Shown here in pieces: positions 7,573-21,046 of a stretch of 32,456 nucleotides of DNA. How positions within the stretch are numbered: position 1 is the stretch's first letter; every line of letters starts with the position of its first letter. A program made the position numbers and the translations under genes. The stretch comes from Bacteriovorax sp. (GTDB taxonomy: Bacteria > Bdellovibrionota > Bacteriovoracia > Bacteriovoracales > Bacteriovoracaceae). Under the pieces are notes generated by a model. The model ran no database searches and was not told the origin of the DNA. It saw only the letters and a list, made by a program, of their open reading frames with translations. The stretch covers positions 1 through 32,456 of the forward strand of contig JACMRM010000124.1 of NCBI GenBank assembly GCA_014376445.1. Reading direction: 5' to 3'.

Positions 7573-7632
7573 TGGCCAGCGAGTTTGTGTACCTTTTAGT
7601 GCCATGCTGGCCAATTTAAAAATTTTTTTTTT
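7573..7632 (+). promoter_or_regulatory. Hairpin plus ten-T run at the ABC transporter start
   Basis: TGGCCAGC (7573-7580) pairs with GCTGGCCA (7606-7613) across a 25-base loop; AATTTAAAAATT and ten Ts (7623-7632) follow. This looks like a terminator for the DUF3617 gene, yet the right arm contains codons 1-3 of the ABC transporter and the T-run its Phe codons. It may act as an attenuator or limit translation initiation. Confidence 0.5.
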
Positions 7633-10600
7633 CTTCAACGTCACACCCCTTGTAAAAAAAGGGCGTAAAAAAATACTTACTTTCGAAGATCTTCTTCCGG
7701 TTCCTGATGAAGTGAGAATCGAGCGCACTGAATACGTTAAGCCCCCGGATCTTTCATCTCAAAGAAAATTTCTAACTGCTTTAGTTTTAGAGCAAAAGAA
7801 ATTAGTTTTTAGAGCATGGTCTTTTTACATTCTTGGAACCCTCGCAAGTCTGACGACACCGTTTTTTGTAAATCAATTCATAACGCGTCTGACAAGGATG
7901 TCTCAGGGGCTCGAGACTTATCATACAATCATTCCTGTAGCTGTTGGCATTGGAAGCATTGGCGTTTTGATGGGGATCGGTTATCAGCATAACTTCTGGG
8001 CGACTCTTCAAGCAAATGTAAAAATTACTGCCCGTCTGAATCGTTTGATTTTTGAAAGCGCGCTTAAGCTTTCACAGAAGGCGCGACAAAACGCTAACGT
8101 CGGCGATGTTGTTAATCATATGAGCTCTGACAGTGAAGCGATTGCAGATGTTCCTATGTTCCTCGGAGATATTGGATGGGCGACACTCCTGCTTACCGGC
8201 TCTATTTCCATGCTGTTTTATTATCTGGGATGGACTGCCTTTATTGCAGTCGTTATTTTATTGATCCTTACACCAGTCACAAGAAAGATCGCCAAAAATT
8301 TTATTCATCTTGAAGATGAGATGATGAAAAAAAGAGATCATCGTGTGACTTTAATGGGGCAGGTTCTTCAGTCGATGAGGTTGGTGAAGTATTTTGTTTG
8401 GGAAAAAGAGATTTCAAAACAAATCGGCATGGTGAGAGAAGAAGAAGTAATGGCGAGAAGAAGCCTGGCGAAAGTTGAAATGCTTTCGGGACTGAGCTTT
8501 CTTGCTATTTCCACTATGGTTTTATTTGTTGCTTTAGGTGTTCATGTATTGAGAGGACAGGTTTTGACACCTGCACTGGTTCTTACCTGTGTTTCTTTAT
8601 TTGGACTTTTGCAGGAGCCGATAAGCCATCTTCCGGGAGTATTATCAAGGCTGATCAATGCATGGGTTTCTGCTAAAAGAATTATTTCATTTTTAGAGTC
8701 TGATAAAGTTTCAGACCATATTGTTGCCAGAGAATCTGATCTCAGGGGTGCCGTGATTCGTTTTGATCATGTGAACTTCAAAAGTGAAGGCGGAAATTTT
8801 GAACTAAATGATTTAAATTTTGATATTAAAAAAGGATCTACTGTCGCAATCGTTGGAGAAGTAGGCTCAGGAAAAACGACCATCATCCAGTTGATGCTTC
8901 AGGAAATGAAACCTGGTGCGGGAGGTGTTTTTGTCGCCAGCGATGAAATGGGCTACGTCAGCCAGGAAAGTTATATCATGAACGCGAACGTTCTCGAGAA
9001 CCTGAAAATGGGAAAAGAGAATGTCAGCGATGAAAAAATAAGAGAAGCACTTTTTATAACATCAATGGAAAGAGATATTGAGTCGCTTCCCGGCGGACTG
9101 CTGACAGAAATCGGAGAAAAAGGTGTCAACCTGAGCGGTGGACAGAAGCAGAGAGTTTCGCTGGGAAGATGTTATATTCATGATCCGCAGATTGTTCTTC
9201 TTGATGATCCGCTTTCTGCAGTCGACGTTCATACTGAAAAACAGCTGGTGAAAAATCTTATTTTAGGTGCATGGAAAAATAAAACTAGAATCATTGCAAC
9301 ACACAGACTCGAAGCTCTCGGCATGTTCGACAGGATTTTATTTCTAAAAAATGGAACTATTGCAGCTGATGGAAATTTAAATGAGCTTTTAAAATCGAAT
9401 GAAGATTTTAAGCATTTTTACTCTCACCATTTTGAAGTTCATTCTAATGAAAAAGATTCGATCCTTGCCGCCTCAATTGCAGGCGATGCGATTAAAAGTG
9501 AAATACGTCTGATGAGTGATGAAGATCGTGAAGAAGGTGCTGTGAAAGGCTCTCTCTACTGGGATTATGTTAAAGCATTAGGCGGTGAAGGAAAAAATCA
9601 GAAGCTGATTATTGTGACTTTAATTTTAGGTGTTCTGGGTATTTCTATTTTTCCATTATTCAATCAGTGGTGGCTGAGCTGGTTTTCTGCTCATCCGGAA
9701 AAAATCACTCCAATTCAAGGCGTTTTGGTTTACGGCGGTATCTCTGCCTTTAGTTTAACTTTCAATCTGAGCAACCAGATGTTCTGGCTTAAACATGGAA
9801 TTAAAGCAGGTATAGAACTTCACGATAGAATGCTGGCATCTGTTTTAAAAGCGCCGGTGAGATTTTTTGACACAACTCCGGTCGGAAGGCTGCTGCAAAG
9901 GTTTTCCCGCGATCTTGAATCTGTGGATATTCAGCTTCAGTGGAGTTTTGAAGCGGCCGTTCAATCACTGTTTCAGATTATTGTTTCGCTCTCGGTAATT
10001 ATTATTTTAGTACCGATGGTTTTGGTTGTGATCTTGCCTGTTGGTTTTATTTACTGGCAGCTGCAGATGAATTACAGATCATCTGCACGGGAAGCAAAAC
10101 GTATGGACTCCATTGCGCGCTCCCCTCGTTATGCGCATTTTAAAGAAACTCTCGGAGGACTTTCAGTCATCCGCGCCTATAAAAAAGAAGCATGGTTTAG
10201 AAATCAGTTTTTTAATCACCTTGAAAAAAGCCAGCTGGCCTCTGTGAATAACTTTTTCTTGAATAGATGGTTTTCAATCCGCATTCCCATGATCGGAGGA
10301 TTGATTTCAGGATCGACTGCACTTTGTATTATTTACAGTGTAAAACACTCTTATCTGACAGCGCCTACAGCGGGTCTGGTAATTTTATATTCTATGTCGT
10401 TTTGGGGAGCGCTCAACTGGGGGATTCGTATTCTCTCAGATCTTGAGTCGCGCATGACTTCTATTGAGCGAATCAGGTTTATGACTCATCTTCAAAGCGA
10501 AAAAAAATATTTAACACAAAATAAAACTGAAGTTGAAGATAGTTGGCCCGCCTATGGAAAAATTGTTTTTAAAAATGTTCACGCTCGTTATGATGAATCA

Positions 10601-11284
10601 CTTCCTGAAGTTGTAAAAGGACTGAGCGTAGAAATTCCTTCAAAGGCACAAGTCGGAATTGTCGGCCGTACAGGAGCTGGGAAAACCACATTGTTCCAGA
10701 TGATTTATCGTTTCATCAATCTTCATCAGGGAACAATTGAAATTGATGGAGTCAATATAGCAAGTGTTGAGCTCGATACCTTAAGATCAAGGCTTGCCAT
10801 TATTCCACAGGATCCGACACTTTTTATGGGGACATTAAGGAGCAATCTTGATCCTTATTCAAGAAAGACTGATCATGAAGTCTGGAAAGTTTTGAATGAA
10901 ACCGGATTAGAGGATTTAGTAAAAAATTATCCGCTGGGATTGTTATCACCTGTAAATGATGGCGGTGCCAATCTTTCGCAGGGCCAAAGGCAGTTATTCT
11001 GTCTTTCGAGAGCACTGCTTCTTGATGCAAAAATTATTATGTTGGATGAAGCGACTGCGAGTGTTGATGTTGTTTCAGATGCCAAAATTCAAAGAGTACT
11101 TCGTCGTGAACTAAAAGATAAAACAGTTCTGGTTATTGCTCACCGGTTGGGTACAGTTGCAGATCTTGATTATTTAATGGTTATGAATGATGGAAGGCTG
11201 GAGTCTTTTAAGAGACCTGATGAATCAAATATCCTTGAGCAGGCGTTAGAGCTGGGACTTGAAGTAGATACAGTTAAAGTTTGA
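7604..11284 (+). CDS. Full-length ABCC-type (MRP-like) ABC exporter
   Basis: A 1,226-residue protein with two membrane domains and two ATPase domains in one chain (TMD1-NBD1-TMD2-NBD2). The N-terminal NVTPLVKKGRKKILTFEDLL motif is the ABCC/MRP hallmark and fixes the start at or very near ATG 7604, although no ribosome binding site is visible. NBD1: Walker A GEVGSGKTT (about 417-425), signature LSGGQKQR (about 510) and Walker B IVLLDDPLSAVD, in which the catalytic Glu is Asp. NBD2: GRTGAGKTT (about 1020), LSQGQRQL (about 1123) and IIMLDEATASVD with Glu. Linker and TMD2 lie between about 620 and 960. Eukaryotic MRPs show the same asymmetry and export conjugates or lipophilic anions; the substrate here is unknown. 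The stop is seven bases from the convergent kinase stop, with no terminator between. Confidence 0.92.
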   Translation: MLANLKIFFFFNVTPLVKKGRKKILTFEDLLPVPDEVRIERTEYVKPPDLSSQRKFLTALVLEQKKLVFRAWSFYILGTLASLTTPFFVNQFITRLTRMSQGLETYHTIIPVAVGIGSIGVLMGIGYQHNFWATLQANVKITARLNRLIFESALKLSQKARQNANVGDVVNHMSSDSEAIADVPMFLGDIGWATLLLTGSISMLFYYLGWTAFIAVVILLILTPVTRKIAKNFIHLEDEMMKKRDHRVTLMGQVLQSMRLVKYFVWEKEISKQIGMVREEEVMARRSLAKVEMLSGLSFLAISTMVLFVALGVHVLRGQVLTPALVLTCVSLFGLLQEPISHLPGVLSRLINAWVSAKRIISFLESDKVSDHIVARESDLRGAVIRFDHVNFKSEGGNFELNDLNFDIKKGSTVAIVGEVGSGKTTIIQLMLQEMKPGAGGVFVASDEMGYVSQESYIMNANVLENLKMGKENVSDEKIREALFITSMERDIESLPGGLLTEIGEKGVNLSGGQKQRVSLGRCYIHDPQIVLLDDPLSAVDVHTEKQLVKNLILGAWKNKTRIIATHRLEALGMFDRILFLKNGTIAADGNLNELLKSNEDFKHFYSHHFEVHSNEKDSILAASIAGDAIKSEIRLMSDEDREEGAVKGSLYWDYVKALGGEGKNQKLIIVTLILGVLGISIFPLFNQWWLSWFSAHPEKITPIQGVLVYGGISAFSLTFNLSNQMFWLKHGIKAGIELHDRMLASVLKAPVRFFDTTPVGRLLQRFSRDLESVDIQLQWSFEAAVQSLFQIIVSLSVIIILVPMVLVVILPVGFIYWQLQMNYRSSAREAKRMDSIARSPRYAHFKETLGGLSVIRAYKKEAWFRNQFFNHLEKSQLASVNNFFLNRWFSIRIPMIGGLISGSTALCIIYSVKHSYLTAPTAGLVILYSMSFWGALNWGIRILSDLESRMTSIERIRFMTHLQSEKKYLTQNKTEVEDSWPAYGKIVFKNVHARYDESLPEVVKGLSVEIPSKAQVGIVGRTGAGKTTLFQMIYRFINLHQGTIEIDGVNIASVELDTLRSRLAIIPQDPTLFMGTLRSNLDPYSRKTDHEVWKVLNETGLEDLVKNYPLGLLSPVNDGGANLSQGQRQLFCLSRALLLDAKIIMLDEATASVDVVSDAKIQRVLRRELKDKTVLVIAHRLGTVADLDYLMVMNDGRLESFKRPDESNILEQALELGLEVDTVKV

Positions 11285-16622: not shown

Positions 16623-17780
16623 GTGCTTTTGGATTCGACAAATAATTATAGAGACTCAATGGAGCTGCATGAATTTTTCATGCAGGCCCCTGTACCTTTG
16701 GTTCTTTTAAGCGAAGCCAGCCATATTTTCACTCTTGCCAATAAAGCATACGAAAATCTTGTTAAAAGATCTGTTATCGGAAAAACAGTAAACGAAATAT
16801 TTAGTTTCGAAGAAGCGAAGCATTTTCTCCCTGCTATTGATCATGTTTTCAATACTGGAGTTGCTTACACAGGTAAAGAAATATATTTTCCGTTAATGAA
16901 CGATAATGAGGCCGTAAGTGATCATTGGGTTGATGTGAATTATTATCCATTTTTCGGCAACACTGGAAAAATCACCGGTGTACTGGCCTTTATCAATGAT
17001 GTGACTGCTATAGTTGAAGCGAGAAAATTTATTGAAAAAAGTGAACAGAATCTTCGTCATTTGGTTACTAATCTGGAAAAAGAAAGTGATCTTAGAGAAG
17101 TTTTTGTTTCCGCACTTTCACATGATCTGAGAACTCCTTTGACTGTTGCTAAACTGAGTTCTCAGGCCCTTATGAGAAAGCTTGAAGATTCATCTCCAAT
17201 GCACAAGATAGCGCATAGAATTTCTGTGAGTATGGATCGTGCCGATAAAATGATTCAAGATCTTCTGGACGCCAGCCAAATCAAGGGCGGTGAGAAGCTT
17301 CCTCTGCGGATCACTTCTTGCAACATGAATAATATTGTCACTTCTGTGATTGAAGAGCTCTCAAGCATGCACCACGACCGTTTTGAAATGCATGCAGAGG
17401 AAGAGATAAATGGTTTTTGGGATGACAGTGGCATCAGGCGTGTGCTGGAAAATCTGCTTTTAAATGGCATTAAATATGGAAGTGAGTTGACTCCGGTGAA
17501 TATTCGTTTAAGTAGGAATGAAGAGTCGATCGTTATGGAAGTTCATAATGAAGGATTGCTTATAATTCCAGATGAACTCGCTACTATCTTTGACCGCTTT
17601 AAAAGAGCGAAAAATGCCAGTTTGATTCAACAAAAAGGTTGGGGATTAGGATTAACGTTGGTTAAAGGAATCATTGAGGCCCATGGCGGTACAGTGAATG
17701 TAAAAAGTTTAAGCGGTGAAGGAACTACCTTCGCAATTTGTCTTCCGCTAGACTCCACAAGTTTCTGTGACCAGGGATAA
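16623..17780 (+). CDS. Soluble PAS-domain histidine kinase
   Basis: A 385-residue protein. GTG at 16623 is used with AAAGG upstream; TTG 16629 or ATG 16662 are alternatives that leave the domains intact. No membrane segment. A PAS domain spans about residues 14-145 (APVPLVLLSEASHIFTLANK to GVLAFINDVTAIVEARKFI), followed by a coiled linker, HisKA with His167 in ALSHDLRTPLTVAKL, and HATPase_c with LLLNGIKYGSELTP and WGLGLTLVKGIIEAHGG. It is cytoplasmic and likely senses an internal signal. The stop is two bases before the KaiC-like gene, and the response regulator follows that, so the three form one operon. The Asn of the N-box is present, so it should be an active kinase. Confidence 0.92.
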   Translation: MLLDSTNNYRDSMELHEFFMQAPVPLVLLSEASHIFTLANKAYENLVKRSVIGKTVNEIFSFEEAKHFLPAIDHVFNTGVAYTGKEIYFPLMNDNEAVSDHWVDVNYYPFFGNTGKITGVLAFINDVTAIVEARKFIEKSEQNLRHLVTNLEKESDLREVFVSALSHDLRTPLTVAKLSSQALMRKLEDSSPMHKIAHRISVSMDRADKMIQDLLDASQIKGGEKLPLRITSCNMNNIVTSVIEELSSMHHDRFEMHAEEEINGFWDDSGIRRVLENLLLNGIKYGSELTPVNIRLSRNEESIVMEVHNEGLLIIPDELATIFDRFKRAKNASLIQQKGWGLGLTLVKGIIEAHGGTVNVKSLSGEGTTFAICLPLDSTSFCDQG

Positions 17781-17782
17781 AT

Positions 17783-19201
17783 ATGGATATCGAAAAAAAG
17801 CTTTTTGTAAGTGGTATACACGGCTTTGACCAGATTTTAGGCGGCGGTTTTCTCAAGGGAAGACTTTATCTGGTTGAAGGAATTCCTGGTTCGGGAAAAA
17901 CAATTCTCGGAAATCAGCTTGTGTTTGCAAATGCAGAACAAGGGCATTCTTCATTATTTGTCACATTATTATCTGAATCCCACGGTAAAATGCTTGAGAA
18001 CTTAAGAGGGTTTGAATTTTATAATGAAAATATTATTAACGATAAAATATTTTATTTAAGCGGCTATTCTGAACTGTCCGAGAGCGGTATCGACGGATTC
18101 AAGAAATTCCTCACTCAAAATATACGTTCATTAAAAATCAAATTAGTTGTTATCGACGGCTTTAAAATTGTCAGCAGTTTTTCTAAAGATAATTTGGAGT
18201 ATTCAACTTTTCTCCATGATCTGAATACACTTGCATCAGCACTGGACTGTATCTTTGTTATTTTGAATCCTTTGGACACAAAACTGCTGCAGTCTGAAGA
18301 TGTTTTGACAGACGGTCTTATCGAATTAAAAAGAACAGATGTCGGTATGAGAAATGTCAGAGAAATTCATGTGCATAAAATGAGAGGGATGAAGCATTTT
18401 GAAGGACGGCATGAACTTAGTATTTCCAGAAACGGAATTCGCGTTTTTCCAAGAATTGAGTTGCTTGTAGCAAAACTCAAACCTTTTCTTCCAAACTTAA
18501 CTGAAGAAAAAAAATCATTTGGGATAAAAAATCTGGATGAAATGCTTAAGGGAGGAATTCTTGCAGGTTCAGTGACTTCACTTTTCGGTCCTCCTGGATC
18601 CGGCAAGACACTCATTGGATTAAAGTTTCTTCATGAAGGCCTTCTTGCAGGTGAAAATTCTTTGTATTTTGGTTTCTATGAAACCCGCGATCAAATGCTA
18701 TCTAAAGCGAATGGTATCGGATTGAATTTTGAGCCATTCATTAATTCTGGGCAGCTGCAGTTTGAATGGTATCCGCCAACAGAACAATTGATTGATGAAC
18801 TGTTTGAAAAACTTGTTAATGTCATTGAAGAGAAAAAAATCTCCAGAGTTTTCATTGACGGTATTGAAGGATTTAAATTCTCTGCTGTATTTATAGACCG
18901 CTTGCCGCGCTTTGTGGCCTCGCTGACAATCAAGTTGCGCTCAATGGGAGTCACTGCATTTTTTAGCGAAGAAGCGAGAATGCCCAGTATGGTAAAAGAT
19001 TATCACCTTGGAGAGTATTCAGCAGCGTTCGAAAATATTATTTACTTAAGATATATGGAAAGTGATTTCCATGTCAGACGACTGATCAATATTTATAAAG
19101 TCCGGGCAAGCAGCTACGATATCTCTATCCATGAATTCCATATTCAAAATCAGGGGATAGTTGTTGAAGAAAAATCCTACAAACAGGATGCTACACCATG
19201 A
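17783..19201 (+). CDS. KaiC-like double RecA-fold ATPase
   Basis: A 472-residue protein with two tandem KaiC/RecA domains. Domain 1: SGIHGFDQILGGGF, Walker A GIPGSGKT (33-40), SLFVTLLSESHGKML, Walker B VVIDG with Asp125. Domain 2: IKNLDEMLKGGI, Walker A GPPGSGKT (269-276), SLYFGFYETRDQML, Walker B VFIDG with Asp359. KaiC proper carries paired catalytic Glu residues; here domain 1 has a lone Glu in LSES and domain 2 a lone Glu in FYET. No KaiA or KaiB gene is present, so this is a KaiC-like signalling ATPase rather than part of a known clock. It overlaps the response regulator start by four bases and sits between a PAS kinase and that regulator, so it probably works in the same pathway. Confidence 0.92.
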   Translation: MDIEKKLFVSGIHGFDQILGGGFLKGRLYLVEGIPGSGKTILGNQLVFANAEQGHSSLFVTLLSESHGKMLENLRGFEFYNENIINDKIFYLSGYSELSESGIDGFKKFLTQNIRSLKIKLVVIDGFKIVSSFSKDNLEYSTFLHDLNTLASALDCIFVILNPLDTKLLQSEDVLTDGLIELKRTDVGMRNVREIHVHKMRGMKHFEGRHELSISRNGIRVFPRIELLVAKLKPFLPNLTEEKKSFGIKNLDEMLKGGILAGSVTSLFGPPGSGKTLIGLKFLHEGLLAGENSLYFGFYETRDQMLSKANGIGLNFEPFINSGQLQFEWYPPTEQLIDELFEKLVNVIEEKKISRVFIDGIEGFKFSAVFIDRLPRFVASLTIKLRSMGVTAFFSEEARMPSMVKDYHLGEYSAAFENIIYLRYMESDFHVRRLINIYKVRASSYDISIHEFHIQNQGIVVEEKSYKQDATP

Positions 19202-19557
19202 GTACAACTATTCTTCTCGTCGATGATGAAAAAGATATTCTGGCAGCTCTTAAAGAGCTGCTTGAAATGGAAGGTTATGTAGTTATAACAGCTTTAAACG
19301 GCAAAACAGGGTTATATTTGTTTCATGAATTTAAACCTGATTTGATTATTTCCGACATGATGATGCCCATAATGAACGGCTATGAAATGATAGCACATAT
19401 AAGACTAGATCCGACTCTGTCTAAAGTTCCGATTATCGTGATGAGCTCTGCTATAACACTTGCCAGAGTTGAAGACGCTCCATGGGATTATTTTATCAAG
19501 AAGCCCTATGGAATAGATGATTTATTAGTGATTATAAAAAAATTGATGGAAAAATAA
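19198..19557 (+). CDS. Single-domain response regulator (CheY-like)
   Basis: A 119-residue receiver domain only. Its ATG overlaps the KaiC-like stop (ATGA), so translation is coupled. The acidic pocket (Asp9, Asp10), phospho-acceptor Asp53 in IISDMMMP, switch Ser in IIVMSSAI and the Lys in FIKKPYG are all present, so it should be phosphorylated. It has no DNA-binding or other output domain, so its signal passes by protein contact, most simply to or from the KaiC-like ATPase. The PAS kinase two genes upstream is its likely partner. A 227-base gap follows before the hibernation factor gene. Confidence 0.93.
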   Translation: MSTTILLVDDEKDILAALKELLEMEGYVVITALNGKTGLYLFHEFKPDLIISDMMMPIMNGYEMIAHIRLDPTLSKVPIIVMSSAITLARVEDAPWDYFIKKPYGIDDLLVIIKKLMEK

Positions 19558-19784: not shown

Positions 19785-20102
19785 ATGAATATTCAAATCA
19801 GCACCGATAAAAACATTGATGGTGGAGAAAAATTTTCGACATACGTCAATGGTGTTGTTAATCAAGCTGTAAGCGGATTTAACACTCAGATCACTCACGT
19901 AGGCGTTCACTTTTCAGATCAAAACAGTTCTAAGATTGGATTTCAAGATAAACGCTGTGTAGTTGAATTTCATATCGCGGGAAGAAGCACGACGGCCGTC
20001 ACACACGACGCTGACAGCGTAGATGAAGCACTATTAGGAGCAGTTGAAAAAGCAAGACATTCAATCGAGCACACACTAGGAAGAATGAACAAACGTTCAT
20101 AA
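19785..20102 (+). CDS. hpf: Ribosome hibernation promoting factor (HPF/RaiA family)
   Basis: A 105-residue protein with GGAG upstream of ATG. It has the family's beta-alpha-beta-beta-beta-alpha pattern: NIQISTDKNIDGGEKFSTYV, then THVGVHFSDQNS, CVVEFHIAGRSTTAVTHDAD and the final helix DEALLGAVEKARHSIEHTLG. Family members bind the 30S subunit channel in stationary phase and block or dimerise ribosomes. It is the short form, with no C-terminal dimerisation domain. The gene is followed 27 bases later by a coiled-coil mini-protein gene, probably in the same mRNA. Which of the short types (YfiA or HPF) it is cannot be told from sequence alone. Confidence 0.85.
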   Translation: MNIQISTDKNIDGGEKFSTYVNGVVNQAVSGFNTQITHVGVHFSDQNSSKIGFQDKRCVVEFHIAGRSTTAVTHDADSVDEALLGAVEKARHSIEHTLGRMNKRS

Positions 20103-20566: not shown

Positions 20567-21046
20567 GTGAAAAATCTTTTAAAACTTTCGATCGTCTCTC
20601 TTCTCTTTGTTAACATCGCCTTTGCCGGCGGATACCCAAAAAATCCTAATTTAACAGAAACTCCCGGTAAACTTTGCTCGAGCCCAACGACTCATCGTTA
20701 CCCGGAAAATATTAACTACTGCAACAGAGATGTTGATTCATACACAAAAAATGCTGTCATCGCTAAGTACGATTCTCTTTTTGGTTACTCAATTAAATCA
20801 ATGAATCGTGGTGATTTCAAAATCGATCACCTTATCCCGCTTTGTGCAGGTGGAGCTAATGATGAACAAAACTTATGGCCTCAGCATAAGAGTGTTTACA
20901 CTATCACTGACCCTCTAGAGCCGCTTGTTTGCCAGAAGATGGCGGATGGAAAACTTAAGCAAGCTGATGCTGTTAAGTTAGTTCTTCAGGCGAAAATGAA
21001 CCTTGATCAGGTTCCGACAATCATTAAACAAATCGAAAGAATGTAA
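20567..21046 (+). CDS. Exported HNH-motif protein
   Basis: A 159-residue protein starting with GTG after AGGA. Residues 1-20 (MKNLLKLSIVSLLFVNIAFA) are a signal peptide, so the product is exported. The core FKIDHLIPLCAGGANDEQNL has the HNH nuclease pattern (DH...L..GG...NL), followed by WPQHKSVYTITDPLEPLVCQ. Related short exported HNH-like proteins are common in Proteobacteria and probably cut or bind DNA outside the cytoplasm; the final His of a strict HNH may be His in PQHK. In a predator this could help to degrade prey DNA, but that is inference. A strong terminator follows the stop. Confidence 0.8.
   Translation: MKNLLKLSIVSLLFVNIAFAGGYPKNPNLTETPGKLCSSPTTHRYPENINYCNRDVDSYTKNAVIAKYDSLFGYSIKSMNRGDFKIDHLIPLCAGGANDEQNLWPQHKSVYTITDPLEPLVCQKMADGKLKQADAVKLVLQAKMNLDQVPTIIKQIERM

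Follow-up and report, generated by a model that had tools for sequence, protein, structure and literature searches.

What becomes of a KaiC-like protein when its gene lies between that of a histidine kinase and that of a response regulator with no output domain, and which of the three proteins controls which? In this article, I will address this question for an operon of Bacteriovorax sp., taking as the window the whole stretch of 32,456 nucleotides that was analysed, which is an entire contig of a 3.41 Mb draft genome that is 88% complete. KaiC-family proteins are widespread outside the cyanobacteria, mostly without a known function, and SasA-type logic holds for clock KaiC. The preliminary description of the operon had read it as a switch of timing or state in which phosphorylation controls the ATPase or the reverse; what stood of this was the tie between the KaiC-like protein and the regulator, while the kinase as part of the unit, the timing role and the glutamate of the first KaiC domain as a mark did not stand. 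The layout itself was borne out: on the forward strand, a soluble PAS-HisKA-HATPase_c histidine kinase of 385 aa (16623-17780; Pfam PAS_9, HisKA and HATPase_c), with a GTG start and AAAGG just before it, ends in a TAA at 17778-17780, two bases ahead of the ATG at 17783 of a two-domain KaiC-like protein of 472 aa (17783-19201; Pfam KaiC PF06745 in two stretches, E 2e-70), whose TGA shares bases with the ATG of a receiver-only response regulator of 119 aa (19198-19557; Pfam Response_reg, E 1.7e-22) in an ATGA overlap at 19198-19201. Promoter and terminator predictions were not in excess over shuffled sequence, phages gave no match that would suggest a phage origin, and a reading as a defence system was rejected on PADLOC matches that were weak only, mostly to generic ATPase or receiver stretches.

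The three-gene arrangement is not chance, since the genes occur in the same order between the same flanking genes in a relative (G007), in the same order at a different place in another (G003), and are all under purifying selection, with pN/pS between the window and G007 of 0.15 (KaiC-like gene), 0.18 (receiver) and, under the weakest constraint, 0.35 (kinase), figures that are rough because synonymous sites are near saturation. The kinase ortholog in G007 is 64% identical (57% in the PAS part, 72% in the HisKA part), the HisKA/HATPase part in G003 is 55% identical, and a kinase in the same operon adjoins the KaiC-receiver pair in three Bacteriovorax-group genomes. Another genus (G022) retains KaiC and receiver. 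In G010 (L037, 7461-10074), the KaiC gene is interrupted by two adjacent, related insertion-like elements, both roughly 1.3 kb long and carrying inverted ends (21 bp perfect, 35 bp 83%), the second holding a transposase-like ORF that is ISAs1-like by eye; the gene has a further stop, the downstream receiver is intact and the kinase is absent upstream, a picture that fits recent loss, though a receiver that has further roles would look like this too. Further KaiC relatives of these genomes adjoin histidine kinases in other orders, and at three loci (L044, from the window's own genome, C252; L047; L048) KaiC-like genes sit directly downstream of very large histidine kinases (some 970-1100 aa or longer), which makes a third kind of KaiC-kinase layout.

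A scan of genome contigs with one protein gave two close relatives only, and the breadth of the survey was taken from plasmids and whole genomes, the sampling beyond Bdellovibrionota being of plasmids only. With tblastn, 286 plasmid records matched, mostly from Alpha- and Betaproteobacteria; the plasmid KaiCs fetched at 30% identity or above have a receiver-only gene directly next to them, by annotation (as for the Skermanella receiver) or by my own ORF calls, whereas below 30% the next gene is that of a histidine kinase or KaiB, including one Caballeronia plasmid whose annotation names a diguanylate cyclase there but in which my kinase model matches an ORF at that place. Among 369 genomes of the phylum, receiver-type KaiC matches were found in 10, set apart from the rest by a jump in E-value (1e-148 to 1e-92). 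In a tree of 64 KaiCs, the window protein groups with the other receiver-linked KaiCs, all 28 of which make up one clade (support 100/99) that spans Bdellovibrionota, Alpha- and Betaproteobacteria; a receiver lies directly downstream in 28/28 of this clade and in 0/36 of the others, and the linkage label changes once on the tree against a mean of 21.1 when shuffled. The tree covers the KaiCs of the plasmids and genomes sampled here and not those of the 2011 survey by De Luca and colleagues (PLoS One), which sorted KaiC neighbourhoods into three contexts. Gaps between KaiC and receiver range from -83 to +42 within the clade, with an overlap of exactly four bases in nine members. A kinase is directly upstream in only 6/28, three of those being one lineage, and a HisKA-type kinase lies within 3 kb in 15; the conserved unit is thus KaiC plus receiver, with the kinase optional. 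Two Paraburkholderia plasmids (L059 and L068) have KaiC and receiver, then a second receiver, then a histidine kinase.

Residues of the KaiC-like protein were equated by alignment to KaiC 8zn5 and compared between the 28 receiver-linked and the 36 other KaiCs. The Walker motifs and Lys/Arg fingers are kept: the window protein has a Walker A motif in domain 1 (GIPGSGKT, residues 33-40, 17879-17902) and in domain 2 (GPPGSGKT, residues 269-276, 18587-18610), together with K199 and R201 (18377-18385) as equivalents of the trans-acting K224/R226 of KaiC, present in 28/28 of the clade, and K439 and R441 (19097-19105) as equivalents of the trans-acting K457/R459 (K in 28/28, R in 27/28), and across the clade the Walker A Lys/Thr, Walker B Asp and Lys/Arg fingers of both domains are kept in 27 or 28 of 28. 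A single glutamate had been noted in place of the EE pair in each domain, and this is so, with S64-E65 (17972-17977) replacing E77-E78 and Y299-E300 (18677-18682) replacing E318-E319; however, domain 1 is ordinary in this respect, as the E77 equivalent is gone in 28/28 of the clade and also in 29/36 other KaiCs, and only domain 2 marks the clade, the E318 equivalent being Tyr in 25, Phe in 2 and Thr in 1 (acidic in none), whereas each of the 36 others has Glu or Asp there. Work on Synechococcus KaiC assigns to E318 the part of catalytic glutamate, activating T432 and S431, with phosphoryl transfer lost on its replacement by alanine (E318A); E319 is a ligand of Mg, and the water of the first domain is activated by E77 (PMC2777353). 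The E78 and E319 equivalents are retained in 28/28, and by this alignment the single glutamate left is the equivalent of the Mg-coordinating residue, not of the catalytic base, which makes the name "ATPase" perhaps a generous one. The phosphosites S431-T432 are replaced by S413-A414 (19019-19024) in the window; across the clade, S431 is retained in 20/28 and the T432 position is Ala in 13, Ser in 11 and another residue in 4.

Considering that the E318 equivalent is lost and that E318A abolishes phosphotransfer in KaiC, I infer that the members of the clade bind ATP and are predicted not to autophosphorylate as KaiC does, although with S431 in 20/28 they may do so by an unusual route. On the tree, E318 was lost once and the receiver linkage arose once; the two thus coincide a single time, which makes their coupling suggestive but gives no repeated correlation. 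In the largely open-access literature searched, no paper was found on E318 loss as the mark of the receiver-linked clade or on a functional test of the clade. An AlphaFold2 model of the KaiC-like protein (pLDDT 36, from two sequences) was set aside.

The regulator has the features of a single-domain response regulator, namely an acidic pair (D9/D10), a phospho-acceptor D53 (19354-19356), S83, K102 and no output domain, and in the 27 complete clade receivers the phospho-Asp, the Lys and the Ser or Thr are kept without exception, so a working phospho-switch is expected. Its AlphaFold2 model is modest (pLDDT 66, with helix 4 absent from the model). The Thr/Ser-to-Lys spacing of 18-20 residues in 27/27, mostly 22 elsewhere, was rejected as a diagnostic because 14/38 other receivers are equally short. 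The kinase has a PAS domain at residues 21-129 by Pfam, no hydrophobic stretch of membrane-span strength was seen in it, and it carries all four boxes of a HisKA kinase: the phospho-acceptor His167 (SHDLRTP, 17121-17123), canonical N (NLLLNGIKYG) and G2 (GWGLGL) boxes, and a G1 box of the variant form NxG (VHNEGLLI) where DxGxG is usual. The earlier statement that the key residues of kinase and regulator are intact is borne out for His167, the N and G2 boxes and the Asp, Ser and Lys of the regulator, with G1 present as a variant. Descent of the kinase from a KaiC-specific kinase lineage found no support, the best relatives being a mixture of KaiC-linked and unlinked kinases.

The reading that I prefer, at a probability of roughly 0.5, is that the receiver replaces KaiC autophosphorylation as the phospho-switch, with the PAS kinase as its donor in this operon. 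At the core would stand two proteins, a KaiC-like hub that binds ATP and forms a double ring, and a receiver dedicated to it; domain 2 of the hub has no catalytic base, and the phospho-switch would be supplied in trans by the receiver. A histidine kinase (in this operon the PAS kinase) would phosphorylate Asp53, the receiver in one of its phosphorylation states would bind the KaiC-like hexamer, and the bound receiver would set the nucleotide or conformational state of the hexamer as the output. Receiver phosphorylation is the simplest substitute signal because the invariant partner of a base-less KaiC is a competent phospho-receiver. The co-operonic PAS kinase would be the obvious donor; since many clade members have no kinase nearby, the kinase may differ among them or the receiver may be shared. 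I would extend this only tentatively to the proposal that the entire clade exchanged its built-in autokinase for control by an external receiver, joining two-component signalling to a bacterial KaiC hub.

The strongest alternative reverses the direction of control after the manner of KaiC-SasA-RpaA, such that a hexamer loaded with nucleotide would sense energy state and turn the kinase up or down, and the receiver, once phosphorylated, would diffuse away as the output and act elsewhere. In its favour, the genes after the KaiCs of the sister clades are almost always those of histidine kinases, clock KaiC is known to work by SasA-type logic (PMC5520375), and a receiver without an output domain could have other proteins as its targets, like CheY or DivK. 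The window locus resembles the cyanobacterial system in its two RecA-like KaiC domains, Walker motifs and Lys/Arg fingers and in the link to a histidine kinase and a response regulator, but differs in that KaiA and KaiB were not found, both catalytic-base glutamates are lost and T432 is Ala; in addition, the regulator has no DNA-binding domain and the kinase carries a PAS domain where a SasA-type KaiB-like N-terminal domain was sought with Pfam and not found. Nearer at hand are the kinase-linked KaiCs without KaiB (the second context of PMC3164672; Ramlibacter Rta_04330/Rta_04340), which likewise pair a two-domain KaiC-like protein with a histidine kinase and of which most sampled members also have no first glutamate in domain 1, yet there the kinase is downstream, the acidic base of domain 2 is kept (as in all 36 KaiCs without a receiver) and the proteins belong to other clades. 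With the receiver and not the kinase as the constant partner in the clade, and no KaiB-like SasA domain in the kinase, I regard this reversal as less likely than the preferred reading, though it may yet hold.

Control of the hub by the receiver must also be weighed against the receiver being a phosphate sink or competitor that tunes the neighbouring kinase, with the KaiC-like protein merely sharing the transcript. Single-domain receivers serve as sinks in other systems, and dozens of similar receivers are present in this group of genomes. However, the KaiC-receiver pair persists in the 13/28 clade members without a HisKA-type kinase within 3 kb, and pairwise distances of KaiC and receiver are correlated (Mantel r 0.745, with 0/5000 permutations as high; 0.44 when only pairs of less than 50% KaiC identity are taken), a correlated divergence that may partly mirror shared species history. 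The pair is also duplicated in tandem with its pairing preserved, as KaiC-receiver-KaiC-receiver arrays in G133 (L111, 8312-14374) and G112 (L110, 191-3641), and a sink is on these grounds improbable. The tie between regulator and KaiC-like protein drawn in the preliminary description has its support in the conservation of the pair in all 28 members and in the correlated divergence. The G133 array has a kinase at its head and a third receiver between the pairs.

A reduced timer, in which slow hydrolysis or phosphorylation by the KaiC-like protein is an hourglass read by the receiver, draws on a KaiC fold that retains the Walker A motif of each domain and the Lys/Arg fingers, and on the discussion of hourglasses for kinase-linked KaiCs (PMC3164672). 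It is nevertheless very improbable: the equivalents of E77 and E318 are gone, T432 has become Ala, KaiA and KaiB were not found in the draft, and KaiCs without two phosphosites are argued to be probably unable to sustain cycling (PMC3164672). By the tests made, all at the level of sequence, the protein does not appear to be a clock KaiC: both of its KaiC domains carry the Walker A and Walker B motifs and the Lys/Arg fingers, but it has neither the Glu pair in both domains nor both phosphosites (Ser413 and Ala414 stand at S431/T432), and it scores far under the clock-KaiC cut-offs of NF006799 and TIGR02655 (210.4 against 408 bits and 130.3 against 546.25 bits, respectively). Neither KaiA nor KaiB was matched in the window's own draft genome at E<=0.001, with Synechococcus elongatus as the positive control (found for KaiA, listed for KaiB), and since that genome is 88% complete the absence of KaiB rests on a draft; a timing role is unsupported. 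In G001, of the same genus (L046 and L063), KaiC occurs with a true KaiB (86 bits, over the cut-off) and a histidine kinase, so KaiBC exists in the Bacteriovorax lineage. That the genes are neighbours without a functional link is hardly credible, contradicted as it is by a linkage that holds in 28/28 members of a single old clade found in two phyla.

The pairing as such is not new. KaiC neighbourhoods were sorted into three contexts in 2011, and in the third ("black") kaiC context a receiver is frequently next and S431/T432 are poorly conserved (PMC3164672); the window locus belongs to this context, sharing KaiC followed by a single-domain receiver, the poor S431/T432 and no kaiB alongside, and the KaiC-receiver pairing has been known since then. 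That context was described as heterogeneous, whereas its receiver-linked members here are one clade with loss of the E318 base, and the window locus adds an upstream PAS kinase in the same operon. KaiC-REC fusions in Methanosarcinaceae are a precedent (PMC5847659), alike by domain composition in joining a KaiC-family domain to a receiver, but fused and archaeal. The result is modest as a discovery and useful as a sharp hypothesis, for a clade with predicted loss of autophosphorylation and an obligate receiver is a clean system for studying control of the KaiC ring without autophosphorylation, and lets one ask whether two-component signals drive that ring.

Other genes of the window were also noted. 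Directly 3' of the operon, a short S30AE (ribosome hibernation factor-like) protein (19785-20102, forward strand) is 88% conserved and syntenic in G007. At 20567-21046, again on the forward strand, a small protein begins like a signal peptide and contains a stretch that by eye is HNH-like (DHLIPLCAGGANDEQNLWPQH); this protein is 88% identical in G007 and gave no match in Pfam or NCBIfam. Upstream, at 7604-11284 on the forward strand, a single polypeptide of 1226 aa contains two complete ABC exporter halves (ABC_membrane plus ABC_tran, twice), an unusual tandem fusion.
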